A stretch of 64,000 nucleotides of DNA from an uncultured Opitutia bacterium (GTDB taxonomy: Bacteria; Verrucomicrobiota; Verrucomicrobiia; Opitutales; Opitutaceae): NCBI GenBank assembly GCA_903855985.1, contig CAIOAO010000058.1:1-64000 (forward strand). The letters are read 5' to 3'. Positions 15,894 to 63,672 of the stretch are shown one piece after another. Below the pieces are notes generated by a model. The model ran no database searches, had not been told where the DNA came from, and saw only the letters and a list, made by a program, of their open reading frames with translations. The position numbers were made by a program, and so were the translations under genes. The stretch's first letter is position 1. Every line of letters begins with the position of its first letter.

Positions 15894-16367
15894 TCAGGCG
15901 GCGGGCTGGGCCTTGCCGCGCCGCTCGGCGGACTCGAGGCGAGGTGAGCTTGCCGAACCGCGGAAGGTGATTTGGACGGACTTGGCGTCGTAGCCGGCCG
16001 GGAGGACCGAGCTGATTTTTTCAAGCAGCTCGGCGGGGAGCTGGATGTCGTGGATCGAGCCGCTTTGCTCGTCGTGAAAATGCGCGTGCGGATGGAGATT
16101 CGGGCAGTAGCGGGTGGGGGCGCGCTCGAAATTGACCGCGCGGACCAAGTCGCACTGCACGAGCGTTTCGAGGCAGTTGTAGACCGTCGCGAGGGAGATC
16201 GAGGGCATGTCGGCGCGGACGCGGGCATACACCTCGTCGGCGGTCGGATGATCCCGTTTCCGGAGGATCACATCGTAGATGACCTCGCGCTGGGGCGTGG
16301 AGCGCAGCCCGCTGTCAGCGAGGCGTTGGGCGAGGGCGTCGGGGGCGGCCATGGTCAGGGTGGACAT
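15894..16367 (-). CDS. Fur-family transcriptional regulator (first gene of suf operon)
   Basis: A 157-residue protein with a Fur winged helix ([47 protein letters not shown]) and a His-rich sensory region [11 protein letters not shown]. The usual CxxC pair after the HDH motif is missing: the sequence runs [13 protein letters not shown]. The structural zinc site is therefore lost or different, as in some divergent Fur/PerR subgroups. Being first in the suf operon, it probably represses the operon and itself in response to iron or peroxide. An alternative start is the Met at 16349. The C-terminus is Ala/Arg/Glu-rich. Confidence 0.88.
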
Positions 16368-16383
16368 CTGGGAAGTGGCAACA

Positions 16384-16460
16384 AATTGGAATGGTTCTAA
16401 GTAGCAAGTGGGAATGAGAACTATTCTAAACTATACTGTATCATAATACCCTGCAGTTAG
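16384..16460 (-). promoter_or_regulatory. AT-rich promoter region of the suf operon with repeated operator-like sites
   Basis: This is a rare AT-rich stretch in a GC-rich window. On the minus strand it has two similar sites, TTAGAATAGTTC (16418-16429) and TTAGAACCATTC (16389-16400), about 29 bases apart. The first is palindromic (AGAA..TTCT). TATAGT (16430-16435) and TATGAT (16440-16445) are possible -10 boxes. The sites are likely targets of the adjacent Fur-family regulator, but they do not match the E. coli Fur box closely. Confidence 0.45.
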
Positions 16461-16464
16461 TTAA

Positions 16465-25096: not shown

Positions 25097-25543
25097 TCAG
25101 GCCGGCCGCCAGATCATCCGGTAGTGCGTGGGGATCTCCTCGGCGGGGATTTCCCTGAAGCCCACCCGCCGGTAGAGCTGGCGGGCCGGGTTGACCTTCA
25201 TGACCTGCAGGCGGACCGGCAGGTTGCGGGCCTGGGCGTCCGCCAGCAACCGGCGCAGGATGCCGGTGCCAAGCCCGCGGTTCTGGAATTCCGGCGCCAC
25301 CATCAGATTGAAGAGCTGGATCACGTCGGCGTCGTACCGGACGGCCGTGAAGGCGGCATCCCGGCCGCCGACGGCGAAGATCCGGATTTCCTCGGGGATG
25401 AACACGGCGTCGAAGCGGGCCCGCTGGGTGTCCTCGTCCCACGCGCCATACGTCTGCTCAATGTAGGCCCGGAGACACCGGGTCTTGGTCACCCAGAGCC
25501 ACTCGCCGTCAGCCGCCCCGGCCTGGCGCACCGTGAAGTCCAT
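25097..25543 (-). CDS. GNAT-family N-acetyltransferase
   Basis: A 148-residue protein starting at ATG 25543, overlapping the proB TGA by one base (TGATG). The GNAT core is seen in IQLFNLMVAPEFQNRGLGTGILRRLL, with the acetyl-CoA pyrophosphate loop NRGLGTG, and in the C-terminal LYRRVGFREIP. The substrate is unknown. Its position as last gene after pyrH-frr-proB suggests co-translation with proB rather than a shared pathway. Confidence 0.85.
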   Translation of the reverse strand: MDFTVRQAGAADGEWLWVTKTRCLRAYIEQTYGAWDEDTQRARFDAVFIPEEIRIFAVGGRDAAFTAVRYDADVIQLFNLMVAPEFQNRGLGTGILRRLLADAQARNLPVRLQVMKVNPARQLYRRVGFREIPAEEIPTHYRMIWRPA

Positions 25544-26673
25544 CAAAGCAGCACGAGGTCGTTGCGGTGGATGACCTCGAGGCGCTTGCGGGCGGGGTAG
25601 AGCGCCGCGACGGCGGGTCCCTGCTGGCCGGCGAGCGCGGGAATCTCGTCGCTGCCGAAGGCGGTCCGTCCGCGCGCGAAGACGATGCCGTCGGGGCCGG
25701 CGAGATTGACGATGTCCCCGGCGGCGAACTCGCCCCGGGAGCCGGTCACGCCGACGGCGAGCAGGCTGCGGCCCTGTTCGCGCAGGACGGGCACGGCGCG
25801 ATCGTTGAGGGAAATGGTCCCGGCGGGGCGCTGGAAGTAGGCGAGCCAGCGTTTGCGCGCGACGAGCGGGAGGCCGCTCGGGACGAAGAACGTGCCCGGG
25901 CCGCGGCCGCAGAGCAGCTTGGCCAGGATCTCGGGTTCGGCGCCGCTGGCGATGAAGACGCCGCAGCCGGACTTGGTGGCGAGCTTGGCGGCGGCGATCT
26001 TGCTCACCATGCCGCCGGTGGCGGTTTCGCTCGTGGTGCCGCCGGCCATCGCCTCGATCTCGGGCGTGATGCGCTCGACGACGGGCACGATTTCCTTCGT
26101 GCCCTTCAGGTCGATGAGGCCGGGGGCGGTCGAAAGGATGATGAGGTGCTCCGCGCCGGTGAGGCTCGCGACCATCGCGGAGAGCATGTCGTTGTCGCCA
26201 AACTTGATCTCGGCGGCGCTGACGGTGTCGTTCTCGTTGATGACCGGGATCGTGCCGTAGCTGATGAGCTGGCGGAGCGTCTCCTGCACCCCGAGGTAGC
26301 GGGAGCGCAGGCGGAGGTCGTCGTGGGTGAGCAGCACCTGCGCGACGGTCAGGCCGTGCGGCGCGAAGCCCGCCTGCCACGTCTGCATGAGCAGGGACTG
26401 GCCGATGGCGGCGCAGGCCTGCTTCTTGGCGATTTCCTTCGGCTTTTTCTCCAGCCGGAGCCGGCCCATGCCGAGGCCGACGGCGCCGGACGAGACCACG
26501 ATGACCTCGGTGCCGCGGGCGCGCAGGGCGGCGATGCCGGCGCAGACGGCGGCGATGCGCGCGGTGTTGAGCTCACCGATGCCGGACGTGAGGACGCCGG
26601 TGCCGAGTTTGACGACGAGCCGCCGGGGGCGGCTGGTCGTCAAACGGGTCGTGGGCGAGGGGTGATGGGTCAT
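25543..26673 (-). CDS. proB: Glutamate 5-kinase
   Basis: A 376-residue protein with an amino-acid kinase domain (LVVKLGTGVLTS, VIVVSSGAVGLGMG, VINENDTVS, FGDNDMLSAMVA, GGMVSKIAAAKLATKSGC) and a C-terminal PUA domain, the usual ProB layout. It makes gamma-glutamyl phosphate, the first step of proline synthesis. The proposed ATG at 26673 lies inside a 7-base-period repeat, so the first residues (MTHHPSPTTRL) are repeat-encoded. A start closer to RRLVVKLG cannot be excluded. proA is not in the window. Confidence 0.93.
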   Translation of the reverse strand: MTHHPSPTTRLTTSRPRRLVVKLGTGVLTSGIGELNTARIAAVCAGIAALRARGTEVIVVSSGAVGLGMGRLRLEKKPKEIAKKQACAAIGQSLLMQTWQAGFAPHGLTVAQVLLTHDDLRLRSRYLGVQETLRQLISYGTIPVINENDTVSAAEIKFGDNDMLSAMVASLTGAEHLIILSTAPGLIDLKGTKEIVPVVERITPEIEAMAGGTTSETATGGMVSKIAAAKLATKSGCGVFIASGAEPEILAKLLCGRGPGTFFVPSGLPLVARKRWLAYFQRPAGTISLNDRAVPVLREQGRSLLAVGVTGSRGEFAAGDIVNLAGPDGIVFARGRTAFGSDEIPALAGQQGPAVAALYPARKRLEVIHRNDLVLL

Positions 26674-26745
26674 GGGTATGATGGCCTGGGGAAGGCGGAT
26701 GGTCAGCAGCCTATAACCTATAACCCATAACCAATGACCGGCGTG
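26650..26745. repeat. Heptad-period intergenic repeat, imperfect inverted pair
   Basis: On one side GGGTGAT-GGGTCAT-GGGTATG and on the other CCTATAA-CCTATAA-CCCATAA-CCAATGACC repeat every 7 bases. They are roughly complementary to each other, with about 30 bases between. The element covers the proB leader and its proposed start codon, and the frr-proB gap. Confidence 0.6.
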
Positions 26746-26756
26746 CGCAGCACGCC

Positions 26757-27302
26757 TCAGACGGTAAGCAGATCCTTCTCCTTGTGCGCGAGGTGGTCGC
26801 CGATGTCCTTGATGGACTTGTCGGTGGCGGCCTGGATGTCCTTCTCGAGGCGCTTGGCCTCGTCCTCGGGCAGCTTCGCCTTCTTCACCGTTTCCAGGGC
26901 GTCGCGGCGGACGTTGCGGACGTGCACGCGGCCGTCCTCGGCGAGCTTGTGGCAGGTCTTGACGAACTCGAGCCGGCGCTCGCGGCTCATGTCGGGAAGG
27001 GGGATGCGGATGAGCTTGCCGTCCACGATGGGATTGAAGCCGAGGTTGGCCTCCTGGATCGCCTTGCCGATGGCCTTGGCCAGGCCGGCGTCCCACGGCT
27101 GGATCTGGATCATGCGCGCATCGGGCGTGCTGATGGCGGCGCAGGATTTCAGTGCCACCATGGAGCCGTAGGCCTCGACCATCACGCCCTCAACGAGGGC
27201 GGGGGTGGCCTTGCCGGTGTGGATCGCGCTGAACTCGTGCAGCGTGTAATCCACGGCTTTTTTCATCTTGGCCTGCGAGTCGGTGAGAATGGGGTGGGAC
27301 AT
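26757..27302 (-). CDS. frr: Ribosome recycling factor
   Basis: A 181-residue protein with the RRF pattern: an N-terminal helix (MKKAVDYTLHEFSAIHTGKATPALVEGVMVEAYGS), IQPWDAGLAKAIGKAIQEANLGFNP and a C-terminal helix (EDEAKRLEKDIQAATDKSIKDIG). It splits post-termination ribosomes with EF-G. It follows pyrH after 67 bases, the common pyrH-frr order. Its leader is a run of 7-base repeats directly touching the ATG. Confidence 0.95.
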   Translation of the reverse strand: MSHPILTDSQAKMKKAVDYTLHEFSAIHTGKATPALVEGVMVEAYGSMVALKSCAAISTPDARMIQIQPWDAGLAKAIGKAIQEANLGFNPIVDGKLIRIPLPDMSRERRLEFVKTCHKLAEDGRVHVRNVRRDALETVKKAKLPEDEAKRLEKDIQAATDKSIKDIGDHLAHKEKDLLTV

Positions 27303-27345
27303 GGGAGGGGGGAGTTGAACGTTGAAAGGTGAAAGTTGAAAGCGG
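27303..27345 (-). promoter_or_regulatory. Pyrimidine-rich heptad leader of frr
   Basis: Read on the minus strand the leader is CGCTTTC-AACTTTC-ACCTTTC-AACGTTC-AACTCCC-CCCTCCC followed directly by ATG, six units with a 7-base period. There is no Shine-Dalgarno sequence in it. It may act as an unstructured, S1-type ribosome landing site, which is inference. Confidence 0.5.
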
Positions 27346-27369
27346 GAAGACGACGGGGCGGGCCGCCGC

Positions 27370-28770: not shown

Positions 28771-29772
28771 TCAGTAGCCTTGGGCTTTCGCCGCCCGGAT
28801 CGCATGCCCCAGCGCCTCGATCTGCGGGCGGAAGGCCTCGTCCATCAGTCCGTTCTCTTGGATCGGGGCGTCCCACGAGATCACGCCGCCCTTGCGGTTG
28901 AAATATTTCGTGTAGGCGATGACGAGCTCGTCGTCGAAACGCTTCGGGTGCTTGCCCCACCATTCGCCCATGATGGTCAGCACGTGCAGCTGCGCGCCGT
29001 CGAGGTAGCGGGAGAAATTCTGCAGTCGCGAGTAGTCCGGCAGGCAGCCGGGGGCCACGGGGAGGTCGCGCTCGATTTCGCCCGGGGTGAAGTCGTCACA
29101 CTCGGTGACCGAGTAGAGTGGCAGGCGCAGGCCGTTGTTGAACGACACGAGGGAGTCGGGGTTGCCGGCCTTGAGCGCCGACGCGAAGCTGCGGTAGTTG
29201 GGCGCATCGGGATGCGAGTAGGCTTCCTTGTTGTAGGGGCCGTCGATCCACCAGCCGTGCACGTTCTTGCCCCAGCGCAGCGACCACTCGCGGCTGACGG
29301 CTTCCCAATTCCTCTGGATCGTCGAGAGCCGCTCGTCCACGGGCTCCTCCAGCCGGGCCTTGGCCACGGCGTCGGCGGCGGGCGCGCCGCCGGGGAGGTA
29401 CACCATCAGCCGGATGCCGAAGGGCTTGAACGCTGCGGCGAGGTCGGCGATCAGGTCGCGCTTCGAGCACTTGCTCGGTTTGATCCCCACGATCGCGTCG
29501 TAGGTGCGGTTGGGGCTGAGGTAGAACCCGGAATTCTGCCCGAGGGTGATGCAGAAATAGGGTACGCGGGCATAGGCCAGTTGTTTGGCCAGACCGTTGA
29601 CGTCGAACGCGTCGATGCGGCGGTTCCAGTCGTCCGCCGTCAGCGTGATCGGCTTCAGGTTGCTGGCTGAATCGGCGAGGTAGTGGACGAACATCCCCCA
29701 GCGGGCGTCATGGAACCAATCGGTATTGGCGCGTTTCCAGGGCGTCGGGGCCGGCGTGGTGCTCACGGTCAC
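28771..29772 (-). CDS. GH29-like alpha-L-fucosidase-type glycosidase
   Basis: A protein of about 333 residues, shorter than classic GH29 enzymes. N-terminal WFHDARWGMFVHY matches the GH29 fold start. HGWWIDGPY carries an Asp at the position of the catalytic nucleophile. A conserved TECDDF segment and GGVISWDAPIQ follow. There is no signal peptide if the GTG at 29772 (or 29766) is used. The ORF-track start at 29844 lies inside an inverted repeat and is unlikely. It may cut alpha-L-fucosides or act on another sugar. It lies next to the AraC regulator that faces the microcompartment operon, which fits a 6-deoxyhexose theme. Confidence 0.75.
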   Translation of the reverse strand: MTVSTTPAPTPWKRANTDWFHDARWGMFVHYLADSASNLKPITLTADDWNRRIDAFDVNGLAKQLAYARVPYFCITLGQNSGFYLSPNRTYDAIVGIKPSKCSKRDLIADLAAAFKPFGIRLMVYLPGGAPAADAVAKARLEEPVDERLSTIQRNWEAVSREWSLRWGKNVHGWWIDGPYNKEAYSHPDAPNYRSFASALKAGNPDSLVSFNNGLRLPLYSVTECDDFTPGEIERDLPVAPGCLPDYSRLQNFSRYLDGAQLHVLTIMGEWWGKHPKRFDDELVIAYTKYFNRKGGVISWDAPIQENGLMDEAFRPQIEALGHAIRAAKAQGY

Positions 29773-29816
29773 GTGCTTACCGGCGGGCGTGGGACGTTGT
29801 CCATGTCGGAATGCAG

Positions 29817-29876
29817 AAGGGGAAGCCAGGAATCCAGGAAGCAAACCTTCCGTTCCTGGTTTCCTGGCCTCCCCTT
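29817..29876. repeat. Inverted repeat, CCAGGAA-type intergenic element
   Basis: Two 24-base arms (29817-29840 and 29853-29876) match as inverted repeats with two mismatches around a 12-base loop. Each arm repeats CCAGGAA twice, as in GCCAGGAATCCAGGAA. It separates the AraC gene from the GH29-like gene and could act as an attenuating hairpin, but no T-tract follows on the minus strand. Confidence 0.65.
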
Positions 29877-29883
29877 AAAAAAC

Positions 29884-36302: not shown

Positions 36303-36343
36303 TCCCATCACCCATCGCCCTTCACAACTTACCCAATACTCCA
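36303..36343 (+). promoter_or_regulatory. Heptad leader between BMC-H genes 1 and 2
   Basis: TCCCATC-ACCCATC-GCCCTTC-ACAACTT-ACCCAAT-ACTCCA precedes the ATG of BMC-H 2, with a 7-base period and no Shine-Dalgarno sequence. A similar unit series (AACTTAA-AACGTAA-CCCCTAA-CCCATTT-CTCCC) precedes BMC-H 3 at 36630-36664. These leaders could tune the relative output of the shell proteins. Confidence 0.45.
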
Positions 36344-36631: not shown

Positions 36632-36664
36632 AACTTAAAACGTAACCCCTAACCCATTTCTCCC

Positions 36665-43253: not shown

Positions 43254-43646
43254 GGGTCGCGGGGAGTGACGGGAATTGGCCGCATCAGGGGGCGGATTTC
43301 AGCCGCGGTCAACGCCGGGCCCGGGTCGCCCGCCGGCCTCCGCGAATTCACCACGGCCTCCAACGCGATGAACCTGCAGAAGCTCGTCGGACGGTGAGCA
43401 CGGCGGCGAACCCTGGATTTTAACCACGAAAGACCCGAAACACACGCAGGCGTCGGATCAGGAATCGCTCAGGCATGAAACGGGCTTGGAATTCCGGCCC
43501 ACGACAGTTCGGTTACGAACCGGAGAATAACTCCCTGCCTCATTGCCTTTCCCTAATCCCTCAGTCCCTTCTCTTTACCTCCCGCCCTTTCTCCGCCCTT
43601 ACCTCTTAATTCCTAAATCCTAACTCCTAAATCCCAACTCCCTCCC
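43254..43646. other. Intergenic region with possible gene remnant and heptad leader
   Basis: About 390 bases without a complete gene. At 43310-43397 one plus-strand frame reads PAGLREFTTASNAMNLQKL and then stops. It looks protein-like and may be a decayed gene end. Near 43425 lies AACCACGAAAGACCCGAAA, a word seen again near 58030. From about 43540 to 43646 the sequence is C/T-rich with a 7-base period (AATTCCT-AAATCCT-AACTCCT-AAATCCC-AACTCCC) and runs straight into the alcohol dehydrogenase ATG. Confidence 0.5.
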
Positions 43647-45314: not shown

Positions 45315-45321
45315 GCTGACA

Positions 45322-45427
45322 GGTGATGGGTTATGGGTCTTGGGTGATAGGCGATAGGAATTGGGTTCTGGCAGGGAAATACCCTGCCTCCGGCACAACC
45401 CATTACCCATGACCAATCACCCCTGAC
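45322..45427. repeat. Heptad-repeat inverted pair between convergent genes
   Basis: GGTGATG-GGTTATG-GGTCTTG-GGTGATA-GGCGATA-GGAATTG on the left and AACCCAT-TACCCAT-GACCAAT-CACCCCT on the right are each 7-base tandem series. They are complementary to each other with mismatches, separated by about 20 bases. The element fills the gap between two convergent genes and could act as a bidirectional terminator. Confidence 0.65.
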
Positions 45428-45440
45428 CTTGTGCTCGGAC

Positions 45441-46234: not shown

Positions 46235-46849
46235 ATGCCCCTGCACCGAAAGAAGATTTTTCGCATCCCGGCTCCGCCGCCTGGCACGATCTACGTGCGG
46301 CCGGGGTACAACCGGGTGCTGGCGGAGGAGTTCGAGGCGCTGAAGCGCAAGCGCGTGGACCTGGTGAAGGACAAGGTGGAGGCGCACAGCCAGGGCGACC
46401 TGCGCGAGAACTTCGGGTTCAAGGCGGCGAAGGACGCCATCCGCGCGGTGGACCGCAAGATGACGTCGCTCGACCGGTTCGTCGCCCGCAACACCTTCAT
46501 CGAGGTCGATCCCACGCTGTGGCTGACCAAGCCGACGGACACGCTGCAACTGGGTCACGTGGTCACACTGGAGAAGCAGGACCTGGCGACGAAGCGGAAG
46601 CACACGTTCACCTTTCTCATCACGACGCACGGCGAGACCGCCAGCGACCCGGAGACGGGGATCGAGTGCCTCCCGCACAACTCCCCGCTCGCCGCCGCCG
46701 TGCTGGGGCTGTCGGTGAACGCTCCCGCCACCGTCACGCTCCCCGCTGGTGCCGCCCTCCTGACCATCCGCGCCCTCCGCAACCCGACCCAGCCCGAGCT
46801 CGACCGCCTGCTCACCGCCATCCGCCCGCCCGAGATCGAGGACGATTAA
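46235..46849 (+). CDS. GreA/GreB-family transcription elongation factor-like protein
   Basis: A 204-residue protein from ATG 46235. The ORF-track start adds 16 residues. The N-terminal coiled coil matches GreA: YNRVLAEEFEALKRKRVDLVKDKVEAHSQGDLRENFGFKAAKDAIRAVDRKMTSLDRF, where GDLREN is the hallmark at the coiled-coil tip. A C-terminal FKBP-like region follows (LGHVVTLEKQD, AAAVLGLSVNAPATVTLPAG). It would rescue backtracked RNA polymerase or compete for its secondary channel. The acidic tip residues differ from E. coli GreA (HSQGDLREN), so cleavage activity is uncertain. Confidence 0.8.
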   Translation: MPLHRKKIFRIPAPPPGTIYVRPGYNRVLAEEFEALKRKRVDLVKDKVEAHSQGDLRENFGFKAAKDAIRAVDRKMTSLDRFVARNTFIEVDPTLWLTKPTDTLQLGHVVTLEKQDLATKRKHTFTFLITTHGETASDPETGIECLPHNSPLAAAVLGLSVNAPATVTLPAGAALLTIRALRNPTQPELDRLLTAIRPPEIEDD

Positions 46850-46900
46850 ACGATTCTGTCCGTCCGGCGGGGCACGGCCCTCTGGGCCGTGAGTCCGGTC

Positions 46901-47004
46901 GGATTTGCCCGCGAATCACGCGAACGAACGCGAAATTTCCGAACTCGCCCGGTTGGTTTGTTGTCCGGTTTTTCGCGCTCTTTCGCGTGTTTCGCGGGCA
47001 ATCC
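46901..47004. repeat. Inverted-repeat element, CGCGAAT/CACGCGAA type
   Basis: The left arm has the words CCCGCGAATCACGCGAACGA and GCGAAA. The right arm is its inverted copy with four or five changes (TTTCGCGTGTTTCGCGGGC). Arms are about 34 bases and the interior about 35 bases. It lies between the convergent GreA-like and DUF885 genes. The same words form the perfect element at 58071-58164. Confidence 0.65.
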
Positions 47005-47020
47005 CACGGGGCGCAGCGCC

Positions 47021-51285: not shown

Positions 51286-52122
51286 ATGCCGGACCCCGCT
51301 GAACTTCCGTTGCTTGAGGTCGAGAACCTTTCGACCGGGTTTTTTACGGAGGACGGGGTGGTGCCGGCGGTGGATGGGGTGTCGTTTTCGCTCATGCGGG
51401 GGCGGACCCTGGCGCTGGTCGGCGAGAGCGGGTCGGGGAAGAGCGTCACGGCGTACTCGATCCTGCGGCTCATCCAGCCGCCGGGGCGGATCACGGGCGG
51501 GAAGATCCTGTTTCGCTCGGCGCGGGCGGGGGAGATTGATCTCGCGGCGCTGGGCGAGAAGTCGGAGGCGCTGTACAAGGTTCGGGGCGGGTTGATCAGC
51601 ATGATTTTCCAGGAGCCGATGACGGCGCTCTCGCCGGTCCACTCCGTCGGCAGCCAGATCGCGGAGGCCATTCTGCTGCACCGGAAGGTGGACAAGAAAG
51701 AGGCGCGGCGGCTGACGGTCGAGATGCTCGGGCAGGTGGGCATCGCGCAGGCGGAGATGTGCTTTGACCAATACCCGCACGAGCTGTCCGGCGGGATGCG
51801 TCAGCGCGTGGTGATTGCCATGGCGCTCGTCTGCCGGCCGGAGCTGCTGATCGCGGACGAATCCACGACGGCGCTCGATGTGACGATCCAGGCGCAAATC
51901 CTCGGGCTGATCAAAACGCTGCAGCGCGGGCTGGGCTGCTCGGTGCTGCTGATCACGCACGACTTCGGCGTCGTGGCGCAGGTGGCGGATGACGTCGCCG
52001 TGATGCACCACGGCAAGATCGTGGAGCATGGGACGGTGCGGGCCGTGCTCAAAAACCCGCAGCACGCGTATACGCGGGCGCTGCTCGAGGCGCTGCCATC
52101 GCGTCGCGTCCGCGTCGCTTGA
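51286..52122 (+). CDS. Oligopeptide-type ABC transporter ATPase (OppD/DppD-like)
   Basis: A 278-residue ATPase: Walker [17 protein letters not shown]-loop [12 protein letters not shown], signature [19 protein letters not shown], Walker [17 protein letters not shown] and switch His [12 protein letters not shown]. The sequence is typical of the D subunit of peptide, nickel or microcin-type importers or exporters. The C-terminal oligopeptide extension is shortened. No permease or binding protein lies nearby, so its membrane partners must be elsewhere. Confidence 0.9.
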
Positions 52123-52131
52123 GAGCCATGA

Positions 52132-52230
52132 ATCCGGATTCGATCTTTTATCGCGGAGACGCGGAGGGGCGGAAACACCGGGAAGGGGCCTCGGTTTCCC
52201 AATCTCCGCTCCTCCGCGTCTCCGCGATCT
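52132..52230. repeat. Inverted-repeat element ATCGCGGAGACGCGGAGG type, copy 1
   Basis: Perfect 18-base inverted arms ATCGCGGAGACGCGGAGG (52150-52167) and CCTCCGCGTCTCCGCGAT (52211-52228) enclose a 43-base interior containing GGAAACACCGGGAA and CGGTTTCCC. The whole stretch is almost the same as 54653-54748. It sits between the two ABC ATPase genes. Confidence 0.75.
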
Positions 52231-52258
52231 GCATTGGGATTGGACCCGCCCATCGCCC

Positions 52259-53143
52259 ATGACCCATAACCCATCACCCGCGCTCAGCCCGCTCCTCTCC
52301 GTCCGCGGGCTGAGCAAGCACTTCCCGGTGATGAGCCGGGGGTTCCGGCCGAAGGTCACGGGCGTGACCAAGGCGGTGGATGACGTGAGCTTCGATCTCG
52401 CGCCGGGTGAGACGCTGGGGCTCGTCGGCGAGAGCGGCTCGGGCAAGACGACGACGGCACGCTGCATCCTGCGCGCGATCGAGCCGACGGCGGGCCAGGT
52501 GCTGTTCCGGCTGCCGGACGGGCGCACGGTGGACCTGGCAAGCCTGTCGGACCGCGCGCTCAAGCCGCTGCGGCAGCACGCGCAGATGGTGTTTCAGGAT
52601 CCGTTTTCCTCGCTCAACCCGCGCATGACCGTGGGCGACATCGTCGGCGAACCGCTGGTGATCCACCGGCTCGCGCGTGGCCCTGAGCTGGCCGAACGCG
52701 TGGCGGAGACGCTGCGGCGGGTGGGGTTGAAGCCGGAGCACCGGGTGCGTTACCCGCATGCGTTCAGCGGCGGGCAGCGTCAGCGCATCGGCATCGCCCG
52801 GGCGCTGATCATGCGGCCGTCGCTCATCGTCTGCGACGAGGCGACATCGGCGCTCGACGTGACGATCCAGGCGCAGGTGCTGGATTTGCTGAAGGAACTG
52901 CAGGCGGAGTTCCGGCTGACGTACCTGTTTGTGGCGCACAACCTCGATGTGGTGCGCAACTTCTGCGACCGCGTGGCGGTGATGCGCCGCGGGAAGATCG
53001 TCGAGCTGGCGCCGACGGCGCGGATTTTCGCGGCACCGGAGCATCCGTACACCAAGCTGTTGCTGTCGGCGATCCCGTCGTCCGATCCGGATGTGCCGAT
53101 GAACTTCGGCGTGGCGGAGGAGCTGGCGAAGCTGGACCGCTGA
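52259..53143 (+). CDS. Oligopeptide-type ABC transporter ATPase (OppF/DppF-like)
   Basis: A 294-residue ATPase with [17 protein letters not shown] at the start, Walker [17 protein letters not shown]-loop [16 protein letters not shown], signature [15 protein letters not shown], Walker [16 protein letters not shown] and a His switch in [10 protein letters not shown]. It pairs with the OppD-like gene upstream. The proposed ATG at 52259 lies in a 7-base repeat, so its first residues (MTHNPSPA) come from the repeat. The conserved domain only begins at about residue 12. Confidence 0.9.
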
Positions 53144-53277: not shown

Positions 53278-54567
53278 TCACTTCTTCGTTTTGACGATGA
53301 AGGGCTTGAAGTAACCGGCTTGGGTGTCGGGGAATTGGCCTTTGATGCGGACGCCTTTTTCTTCGTGCTCCTGCTCGCGGATGTGGCCGAGCTGGTGGAA
53401 GCGGGCGATGACGTCGTAGCGGTCGTGGGGGATGAGCAGTTCCTGCTCGTTGGTCGTATCGGCGATCAGTTCGATGCAGCGCTCCTCGAGGTCGTCGAGG
53501 CCGGCCTTGGTGTGGGCGCTGACGAACAGCGCGTCGGGCACGAGCTGCTTCGCGCGGCGCTTCATGGCGGGCGTGGCGGCGTCCACCTTGTTGAAGACGG
53601 TGATGATGGTCTGGTCGGCGGCGCCGAGCTCCTCGAGGACGCTGAGCGTGGTGGCGTGGTGCTGCTCGAAGTTCGGGTTGGTGACGTCGAGGACGTGGAT
53701 CAGGAAGTCGGCGACGACGACCTCCTCGAGCGTGGCCTTGAACGCCTCGACGAGCCCGTGCGGCAGGCGGCGGATGAAGCCGACGGTGTCGGTGATGAGC
53801 AGCTTGTAATTGCCCTTGAGCTCGAGGGAGCGCGTGGTCGGGTCGAGCGTGGCGAAGAGCTTGTCCTCGGCGAGGACGTGGGCGCCGGTGAGGGCGTTGA
53901 GCAGGGAGGACTTGCCGGCGTTGGTGTAACCGACGATGGCGGTGGTCGGCACGGGCACGCGCAGCCGGCGGCGGCGCTGGACGCCGCGCTGTTTCACGAC
54001 CTCGGCGAGCTCGACCTTGAGGTGGGCGATGCGGTCGCGGACGAGACGGCGGTCCTGCTCGAGTTGGGTTTCGCCCTCGCCACCCATGGAGCCCTTGCCG
54101 CGCTGGCGGGAAAGGTGGGTCCACGCGCGGGTGAGGCGGGGGAGGGAGTACTCCATGCGAGCCAGGGCGACCTGGAGCACGGCCTCGCGCGTGTGGGCGC
54201 GGTCGGCGAAGACCTCGAGGATGACCTCCTCGCGGTCAATGACGGGCAGGCCGGAGAGTTCCTCCCAGTTGCGCTGCTGGGCGGGGGAAAGGTGTTCGTC
54301 GAAGACGATGACGTCGGCGCCGTCCTCTTTCGCCTGGTCGGCGAGCTCCTTGGCCTTGCCGCTGCCGAGGAGGAGGGCGGGGGTGGGCTGGCGGAGGTTG
54401 ACGAGGGTGGAGCGGACGACGGAGATGCGCAGGTTCTCGACCAGTTCCTTCAGTTCCAGGAGGAGCTCGTCGGCCTCACCGGCGGGCATGGAGTGCGTCT
54501 GCACGCCGATAAGGAAGGCGCGCTCGAGCTTGTTGGAGGTGGGCTTGTCGGTGAGGAAATCAGCCAT
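53278..54567 (-). CDS. hflX: GTPase HflX (copy 2)
   Basis: A 429-residue HflX-family GTPase: LLLGSGKAKELADQA and IDREEVILEVFADRAHTREA in the N-domain, a glycine-rich linker (QRGKGSMGGEGETQLE), P-loop GYTNAGKSSLLNAL, switch region LDPTTRS, DTVGFIRRLPHGLVEAF and NKVD. It has about the same length as copy 1 but many differences, so the copies are old paralogues or come from different lineages. The C-terminus (GYFKPFIVKTKK) differs from copy 1. Confidence 0.93.
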   Translation of the reverse strand: MADFLTDKPTSNKLERAFLIGVQTHSMPAGEADELLLELKELVENLRISVVRSTLVNLRQPTPALLLGSGKAKELADQAKEDGADVIVFDEHLSPAQQRNWEELSGLPVIDREEVILEVFADRAHTREAVLQVALARMEYSLPRLTRAWTHLSRQRGKGSMGGEGETQLEQDRRLVRDRIAHLKVELAEVVKQRGVQRRRRLRVPVPTTAIVGYTNAGKSSLLNALTGAHVLAEDKLFATLDPTTRSLELKGNYKLLITDTVGFIRRLPHGLVEAFKATLEEVVVADFLIHVLDVTNPNFEQHHATTLSVLEELGAADQTIITVFNKVDAATPAMKRRAKQLVPDALFVSAHTKAGLDDLEERCIELIADTTNEQELLIPHDRYDVIARFHQLGHIREQEHEEKGVRIKGQFPDTQAGYFKPFIVKTKK

Positions 54568-54628
54568 GGGAGATCAGACAGTGGCTGGAGCCGAAGGTGC
54601 GGTCAACAGGCCTCGGACGATTGGCCGC

Positions 54629-54790
54629 CAGGAGGCGCAAGCAGCGCAAAGACTCGGATTCGATCCTAATCGCGGAAGCGCGGAGGGGCGGAAACACCGG
54701 GAAAGGGCCTCGGTTTCCCAATCTCCGTTCCTCCGCGTCTCCGCGATCCTCTGGAAATCCTGCGCATTTTGCGCCTCTTGGCGGCTCAAT
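54629..54790. repeat. Nested inverted-repeat element, copy 2 of the GCGGAG family
   Basis: The inner arms ATCGCGGAAGCGCGGAGG (54669-54686) and CCTCCGCGTCTCCGCGAT (54730-54747) and their interior almost repeat the 52150-52228 element. An outer, unrelated inverted pair surrounds them: the words GCCGCCAGGAGGCGCAA (from 54634) and TTGCGCCTCTTGGCGG, about 27 bases each side. The element fills the gap between hflX copy 2 and the PhyH-type gene. Confidence 0.7.
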
Positions 54791-54794
54791 TGCC

Positions 54795-57392: not shown

Positions 57393-57974
57393 TCAGACCG
57401 ACGCGACGGCCTCCTTGTAATGGCGGCGGCACATCGGGACGTAGCGGTCGTTGCCGCCGATCTCGACCTGTGCGCCCTGGGTGACGGCGCGGCCGCCGTC
57501 GGCGATGCGCAGGTTCATGGTGGCCTTGCGCCCGCAGTGGCAGATGGTTTTCAGCTCGATGAGGTCGTCAGCGAGGGCGAGCAGCGCGGCGCTGCCGGGG
57601 AAGAGCTGCGCCTGGAAGTCCGTGCGCAGACCGTAGCAGAGCACGGGGATTTCCAGCCGGTCGGCGACCTCGGTGAGCTGCTCGACCTGGGCGCGGGTGA
57701 GGAACTGGGCCTCGTCCACCAGCACGCACGCGACGGCCTCGGTGGCGTGGGCGGCGCGGACGCGCTCGAGGACGTTTTCCGCGGAGCGCAGCGCGAGGCC
57801 GTCGGCCCCGAGCCCGATGCGCGACTCGATGCGGCCGGCGCCGGCGCGGGTGTCGATCGCGGGGATGAACATCAGCGTGCGCATGCCGCGCTCCTGATAG
57901 TTGTAACTCGACTGGAGGAGCACGGTGCTCTTCCCCGCATTCATCGCCGAATAGTAAAAGTAGAGCTTGGCCAT
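57393..57974 (-). CDS. tdk: Thymidine kinase
   Basis: A 193-residue type II thymidine kinase from ATG 57974. The ORF-track start runs back into a repeat. Motifs: P-loop [25 protein letters not shown] (Walker B), [16 protein letters not shown] (lasso region) and a zinc-binding end with CHCGRKA and CRRHY. It salvages thymidine to dTMP. It starts 7 bases upstream of the lactonase-like gene on the same strand. Confidence 0.95.
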
Positions 57975-58070
57975 GTGCGGCAGTTTCCGGAACCCGGGGA
58001 AAAAAGCCAGTCCACGGTGCGTGGGATCACCACGAAAGACACGAAAGTATACGGGGAACGTCGATCCGGG

Positions 58071-58164
58071 CCCGCGAATCACGCGAATTGGCGCGAATTG
58101 ATTCCGAACCCAAATCCTAAACCTTGGATCCGATCCATTCGCGCCAATTCGCGTGATTCGCGGG
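58071..58164. repeat. Perfect 28-base inverted repeat of the CGCGAAT family
   Basis: Arms 58071-58098 (CCCGCGAATCACGCGAATTG plus eight more bases) and 58137-58164 are exact inverted copies around a 38-base interior. Within each arm the word CGCGAAT recurs at about 10-base steps. It lies between the thymidine kinase start and the end of the upstream 319-residue gene. A CACGAAAGACACGAAAG run at 58031-58047 lies beside it. Confidence 0.8.
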
Positions 58165-58180
58165 CACACTCCGAAGCCAC

Positions 58181-63634: not shown

Positions 63635-63672
63635 CGGAAGGTGTTAAGTGTTACGTTTTAGGTGTTACGCTC
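63635..63672 (-). promoter_or_regulatory. Heptad leader of korB
   Basis: On the minus strand the korA-korB gap reads GCGTAAC-ACCTAAA-ACGTAAC-ACTTAAC-ACCTTCC-GCCGACCC-ATG, a 7-base series touching the start codon. The TAAAACGTAAC word also occurs before BMC-H 3. Confidence 0.45.

Follow-up and report, generated by a model that had tools for sequence, protein, structure and literature searches.

Direct repeats of the seven-base word TAACTGA have been described in marine Beggiatoaceae, Cyanobacteria and Bacteroidetes (MacGregor 2015, PMC4679880). The last of their tandem units lies a few nucleotides ahead of a start codon, in most cases with no Shine-Dalgarno (SD) sequence, and the genes that follow share no common function; one fixed word occurs in perfect copies, one inverted repeat was present among 170 sets, and no structure was predicted. 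Verrucomicrobiota are not mentioned in the abstract and the searched passages of that paper. Here, we describe degenerate seven-base units (heptads) that precede several unrelated genes, among them frr, in a stretch of 64,000 nucleotides (nt) from an uncultured bacterium of the Opitutaceae (the window; contig CAIOAO010000058.1, positions 1 to 64,000, of assembly GCA_903855985.1, here called G000). In our reading, to which we assign a probability of roughly 45%, these leaders represent the half nearest the start of a kind of intercistronic element found in Opitutaceae, a lineage whose genes lack SD sequences; a G-poor array would act as a landing strip and a two-armed form would provide coupling. 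The class is defined by computed features, namely the rhythm, its position, the bias to co-directional spacers, the poverty in G, the complementary arms and the turnover of words under a kept rhythm, from which a role as a translation-start or coupling element is predicted.

Like the TAACTGA repeats, the Opitutaceae arrays are tandem heptamers without SD sequences that lie close before starts, the pyrimidine-rich ones ending no more than 12 nt before the next start in 51 of 69 cases (17.3 expected). They differ in that their words are many and degenerate (the list of words does not include TAACTGA), that they often have a complementary partner after the upstream stop (29 of the 55 arrays in co-directional spacers have one in the same spacer), and that the start arm is G-poor, lies in co-directional spacers and changes its word between congeners. 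Because the single exact word and the lack of inverted partners are not shared, the Opitutaceae elements are best seen as a variant, and not a member, of the TAACTGA kind. With non-SD, unstructured or S1-dependent leaders they have in common the missing SD sequence, a low G content and weak predicted structure near the start; to our knowledge, no seven-base rhythm has been reported for such leaders. Translational coupling by an intercistronic structure is a textbook mechanism known from individual operons. The anatomy described here, with a predicted structure between one stop and the following start which could be unfolded by a ribosome on termination, would fit this mechanism; in Opitutaceae, however, the structure belongs to a periodic class that recurs across the family. 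Finally, repetitive extragenic palindromes (REPs) are near-identical tagged palindromes of 20–40 bp, and Opitutus terrae is reportedly rich in GTAG repeats (PMC3733652). The heptad elements, too, form extragenic hairpins between genes, but they have no tag, a variable sequence, an internal period and a long middle; neither GTAG nor fixed ends occur in the heptad arrays listed.

G000 comprises 2.94 Mb in 110 contigs, has a GC content of about 66% and is rated 100% complete; no 16S rRNA gene was detected in it, and its nearest named relatives are uncultured freshwater Opitutae/Opitutaceae. The results are based on a 690-kb sample of this assembly, with genes called by a dicodon model blind to upstream sequence, and on smaller samples from relatives. 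Single leaders were evaluated by comparing their matches at lag 7 with those in 4000 dinucleotide shuffles of the same leader. All five leaders for which a first-pass annotation had listed a seven-base rhythm exceeded their shuffles (p 0.0002–0.0017). The matches were 26 versus 11.9 expected for frr (p=0.0002), 20 versus 11.8 for BMC-H2 (p=0.0017), 17 versus 7.9 for BMC-H3 (p=0.0002), 52 versus 34.3 for the 107-nt adh leader (p=0.0005) and 19 versus 8.5 for korB (p=0.0002). No excess over shuffles was present in these leaders at lags 5, 6, 8 and 9. Independently, Tandem Repeats Finder (TRF) reported period 7 at 26710–26732, 27313–27342, 36304–36325, 43607–43634, 52249–52279 and 63641–63667.

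The gene names proposed in the first-pass annotation were upheld by Pfam (RRF; AA_kinase and PUA for proB; three BMC shell proteins; a zinc ADH; a TPP enzyme for korB; ABC_tran and oligo_HPY for the oppF-like gene), and an SD sequence is indeed absent from all five leaders. The ending CCC-ATG applies to frr, BMC-H3, adh and korB, but BMC-H2 ends with CCA. Leaders of a similar type had also been proposed for proB and the oppF-like gene. Heptads are present at both (proB, lag-7 p=0.0002); those of proB, however, belong to a two-armed hairpin instead of a simple leader, and the called ATG of the oppF-like gene itself lies inside a CCCATGA unit. At the latter gene (52249–52290), the called ATG is thus one CCCATNA heptad, and the array may supply start codons that lengthen the N-terminus by a few residues. 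The adh leader is located in a divergent spacer and the other listed leaders in co-directional ones.

The period-7 autocorrelation proposed as a check showed the same rhythm beyond the window. Before 424 starts with a spacer of at least 30 nt, the excess over shuffles reached z=5.5, 4.1 and 4.2 at lags 7, 14 and 21. Strong non-coding arrays in the 690-kb sample numbered 18 for period 7, 14 for period 14 (a multiple of 7) and 11 for period 9, and between 0 and 4 for each of the periods 4, 5, 6, 8, 10, 11 and 13. SD-like motifs upstream of G000 starts remained at the shuffled level (60/591 versus 49 in shuffles), while the positive control, annotated genes of Escherichia coli, gave 89/146 versus 35 by the same test. 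The trend to C-rich leaders, noted before also where clear heptads are lacking, and to the ending CCC-ATG holds genome-wide and independently of the heptads, C preceding the start in 64% of leaders. Heptads were rejected as a general leader signal, since they occupy only about one in ten co-directional spacers and hardly any divergent ones.

By spacer type, arrays were found in about 8–11% of co-directional, 1% of divergent and 4% of convergent spacers. With the threshold set at 2.0 hits expected in shuffled spacers, five species had arrays in 46/558 co-directional, 2/183 divergent and 6/143 convergent spacers, and a second count over 80 Opitutae loci gave 49/443, 2/122 and 3/78, respectively. 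After pooling, 95/1001 co-directional compare with 4/305 divergent spacers (Fisher p=1e-7). The lag-7 excess followed the same division in the G000 sample (co-directional z=7.8, divergent z=0.7), and co-directional spacers of four congeners reached z=4.3, 2.5, 2.7 and 2.1. No heptad array was found in 46 E. coli spacers. At the other end of the spacer from the pyrimidine-rich arrays, purine-rich arrays begin no more than 20 nt after the preceding stop in 29 of 42 cases (11.3 expected); arrays of period 8–10 are without the clear position bias of heptads at spacer ends.

With a complementary partner in the same spacer for about one array in two, the leader often forms the 3′ side of a hairpin that reaches from stop to start. 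When stop-side arms of pyrH-frr spacers were paired with start-side arms of another species, complementarity was weaker than in the true cis pairs (permutation p=5e-5). Within the window, two arms are present in the frr-proB spacer, where the hairpin is partly conserved in the relative G007 and has a differing version in G008, and in the convergent spacer at 45315–45440. Only the start-side array is present at frr, BMC-H2, BMC-H3, adh and korB, and no complementary partner for the frr array was found within the pyrH-frr spacer of G000.

The comparison of the pyrH-frr spacer covered 12 congeners and the 80 Opitutae loci. Congeners whose frr proteins are 86–96% identical to that of G000 have other heptad words in it, several with a partner arm, and the unit words include CTTTCAA, CCTTAAA, CCTAACA, CTCGACT, AAATCCG, CTCTCAA, TCTGTCC and others. 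The rhythm was retained: among 56 non-redundant Opitutae spacers, lag 7 gave z=14.3 in the last 60 nt before the start and, in the 20 longer ones of these spacers, z=11.6 in the first 60 nt after the stop. Arrays were present in 22/70 frr, 12/56 proB and 1/26 pyrH spacers and in 0/18 spacers of two other groups (frr and proB versus pyrH and the others, 34/126 versus 1/44, p=2e-4). The BMC-H3 word is TAACNNN in G000 and CCCATNN in G007, with proteins about 99% identical. Between three close species the BMC-H2 leaders differ by substitutions only, the heptads being more distinct in G001 and G007 than in G000, and the korB leaders of congeners are G-poor, degenerate versions. In all, there are more than ten words with degenerate units, of which a small set recurs across loci and species; highly similar array pairs made up 4.8%, versus 0.6% in controls. 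A fixed word or single repeat family was rejected because the words vary by locus and species. Tandem AACTYTC is present in 50/388 Verrucomicrobiota genomes, far above the composition expectation, against which alone this count holds, since reversing an AACTYTC array only returns it in a shifted register, so that a reversed-pattern control is not independent. Long near-perfect arrays of AACTCTC or AACTTTC, with up to about ten or more units, occur in G038, G044, G092, G231 and G226, genomes of another verrucomicrobial family (same class, family f10).

A full element between co-directional genes would consist of a purine- and G-rich array with seven-base rhythm that follows closely on the upstream stop, a short middle section, and a pyrimidine- and A-rich, G-poor array that is complementary to the first and ends about 0–12 nt before the next start; some spacers (among them frr, BMC-H2, BMC-H3 and korB) carry the second array only. 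On this view, 30S subunits, or ribosomes fresh from termination at the upstream gene, would use the G-poor array as an open landing strip. Where both arms are present, the strip would be shut by the stem and become accessible once it was opened by a ribosome that terminates at the upstream stop, so that translation of the two genes would be coupled. The period probably arises from tandem duplication or slippage, and may be kept because arrays built from short, G-poor words remain open and are able to pair with another array of the same type. That the word changes between species while rhythm and place stay points to a start-site device in bacteria without the usual ribosome-binding signal. In single-armed heptad leaders the predicted unpaired fraction is 0.76 versus 0.52 and the G content 9.5% versus 22%. 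The earlier idea of unstructured S1-type landing sites fits these G-poor, weakly structured leaders; the half or so of the arrays that have a partner would be base-paired unless opened.

Several observations weigh against this reading. Non-heptad leaders with a G fraction of at most 0.15 already have a predicted unpaired fraction of 0.69, so that low G accounts for most of the openness, and openness does not explain the heptads. The phase of the words to the ATG is not fixed, which leaves a precise ribosome register unsupported. The heptad hairpins of the convergent spacers counted above (6/143 and 3/78) cannot serve in coupling, as they lie between convergent genes, and an array with a single arm has no stem whose unfolding could couple two genes. 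The two ends of the spacer are joined in the minimum-energy folds of 43/64 heptad versus 215/400 other spacers, a weak enrichment (p=0.057). The distribution is uneven, with arrays in 0/25 co-directional spacers of a 100-kb sample from the complete Opitutaceae genome G109 and none in samples of two other families of the phylum. A farther-reaching version, in which a G-poor seven-base rhythm, alone or as the arm of an openable hairpin, replaces the SD sequence at many internal operon genes of Opitutaceae as a period-based, sequence-independent start signal, the rhythm being selected while words turn over, seems unlikely to us.

Among other explanations, we regard neutral debris of tandem duplication as unlikely. 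Seven-base slippage products, not being a multiple of three, would be purged from genes and pile up in non-coding DNA, their position and composition following base-composition constraints near starts and stops. The BMC-H2 array does decay through substitution, and the words have no fixed phase to the ATG; divergent spacers, however, are nearly free of arrays, slippage yields no distant complementary arrays that match in cis, and the rhythm of the frr spacer persists across Opitutaceae despite the change of words. Hairpins acting in transcription, as intrinsic terminators, attenuators or Rho-loading sites between genes, are decidedly unlikely. Long inverted repeats right after stops are commonest in convergent spacers (34/71, versus 69/325 co-directional and 14/134 divergent), and the 3′ arms are C-rich and G-poor like rut sites. 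This convergent excess nevertheless concerns all hairpins, many of them with arms of period 8–10, whereas heptad arrays occur in convergent spacers (9/221) at about half their frequency in co-directional ones, hug the next start and are just 20–45 nt long. Behind the arms, TTTT was found in 1/25 tails and the T fraction was 0.23; the missing U-tract speaks against intrinsic termination, and an intrinsic terminator was rejected on this ground.

The first-pass annotation had also considered a repeat family inserting at gene starts. A limited word set does recur across loci and species, but neither identical copies nor constant ends were observed, and in co-directional spacers the elements reach from stop to start instead of marking starts in general. 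We see little likelihood in the corresponding model of a mobile family, similar to REPs or miniature inverted-repeat transposable elements, that inserts into intercistronic spacers and is moved by a transposase such as Y1. It would account for the small lexicon shared by unrelated loci and other species, one Y1_Tnp gene is present in G000, and GTAG-type REPs are reported as abundant in O. terrae (PMC3733652). On the other hand, the copies are not near-identical, vary in length and share no fixed end or tag, their words are not significantly genome-specific (p=0.08), and the GTAG-bearing hairpins of G000 form a class of their own without heptads. It is very improbable that the heptads are binding sites for a small RNA-binding protein, for instance a cold-shock protein or Hfq, each monomer of which would cover about 7 nt. 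A constant period with a varying word would suit such a protein, and S1, Csp or Csr were proposed for the TAACTGA repeats (MacGregor 2015, PMC4679880); yet there is no fixed word, and Pfam detected neither a cold-shock domain nor Hfq in the 100%-complete G000, with positive control searches, for which reason an array of either protein was rejected.

The features of the window are collected in Table 1. At gathering thresholds, only one tRNA was found among Rfam families in the window, and no heptad element was matched.

Table 1. Heptad elements, associated genes and other periodic hairpins of the window
Feature	Position	Strand	Evidence
pyrH-frr spacer, single-armed heptad leader (CTTTCAACTTTCACCTTTCAACGTTCAAC), 11 nt from the frr ATG	27303..27369	-	TRF period 7, score 46; lag-7 p=0.0002
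frr, ribosome recycling factor	26757..27302	-	Pfam RRF 1.3e-55
frr-proB spacer, two-armed heptad hairpin (GGTCATTGGTTATGGGTTATAGGTTATAGG ... ACCCATGACCCATCACCC)	26644..26756	-	lag-7 p=0.0002; predicted fold
proB-like glutamate 5-kinase, downstream of the frr-proB hairpin	25543..26643	-	Pfam AA_kinase 1.1e-37, PUA 7e-13
BMC-H2 leader, heptads CCCATCA CCCATCG CCCTTCA ...	36303..36343	+	lag-7 p=0.0017; orthologous leaders L135, L137
BMC-H3 leader, TAACNNN-type heptads	36632..36664	+	lag-7 p=0.0002
adh leader array (CTTACCTCTTAATTCCTAAATCCTAACTCCTAAATCCCAACTCCC), single arm, divergent spacer	43598..43642	+	TRF score 56 for period 14; lag-7 p=0.0002 over last 46 nt
Heptad array CCCATCG CCCATGA CCCATAA CCCATCA, start of oppF-like ABC ATPase gene	52249..52279	+	TRF period 7, 4.4 copies; Pfam ABC_tran, oligo_HPY
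korB leader, heptads TAACACC TAAAACG TAACACT TAACACC	63635..63672	-	lag-7 p=0.0002
Heptad hairpin between two stops, convergent spacer, no gene start	45315..45440	.	lag-7 p=0.0002; long stem predicted
Hairpins of period 8, 9 or 10 (GCGGAGAC, CGCAGAGAC, CACGAAANA, CACGGANNA, CGCGAATNNA)	52122-52258, 57974-58180, 54567-54794, 29772-29883, 46849-47020		

Hairpins with arms of period 8, 9 and 10 occur in the same spacers, especially in convergent ones (e.g., ATCGCGGAGACGCGGAG, ACCACGAAATACACGAAAA, CCCGCGAATCACGCGAATT). They are abundant between genes, also at many sampled loci (L022, L023, L029, L060), and their arms often differ between species yet remain complementary. No published description of their words was found in the open literature, and they may share a common origin with the heptad elements. 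A Y1 transposase gene lies at G000:C100:37396-37725 (L274), and hairpins ending GTAGGGCGGG and GTAGCGCAGG are present in L023, L071 and L091; the gene and these GTAG-tagged palindromes are consistent with the REP elements reported for O. terrae. The leader (TTTAGAATAGTTCTCATTCCCACTTGCTACTTAGAACCATTCCAAT) of a Fur-family regulator at 15894–16464 (Pfam FUR 1.3e-24) is, unlike most spacers, nearly unchanged in G007 and partly so in G009, and is probably an operator for autoregulation.

For the choice of start sites in bacteria without SD sequences, especially inside operons, the heptad spacers are a concrete and testable candidate. In the frr and proB spacers, place and rhythm are kept across a bacterial family while the letters are rewritten, so that searches by sequence alignment would miss such an element. 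Even if it had no function, it would still be a clear example of position-locked repeat turnover.
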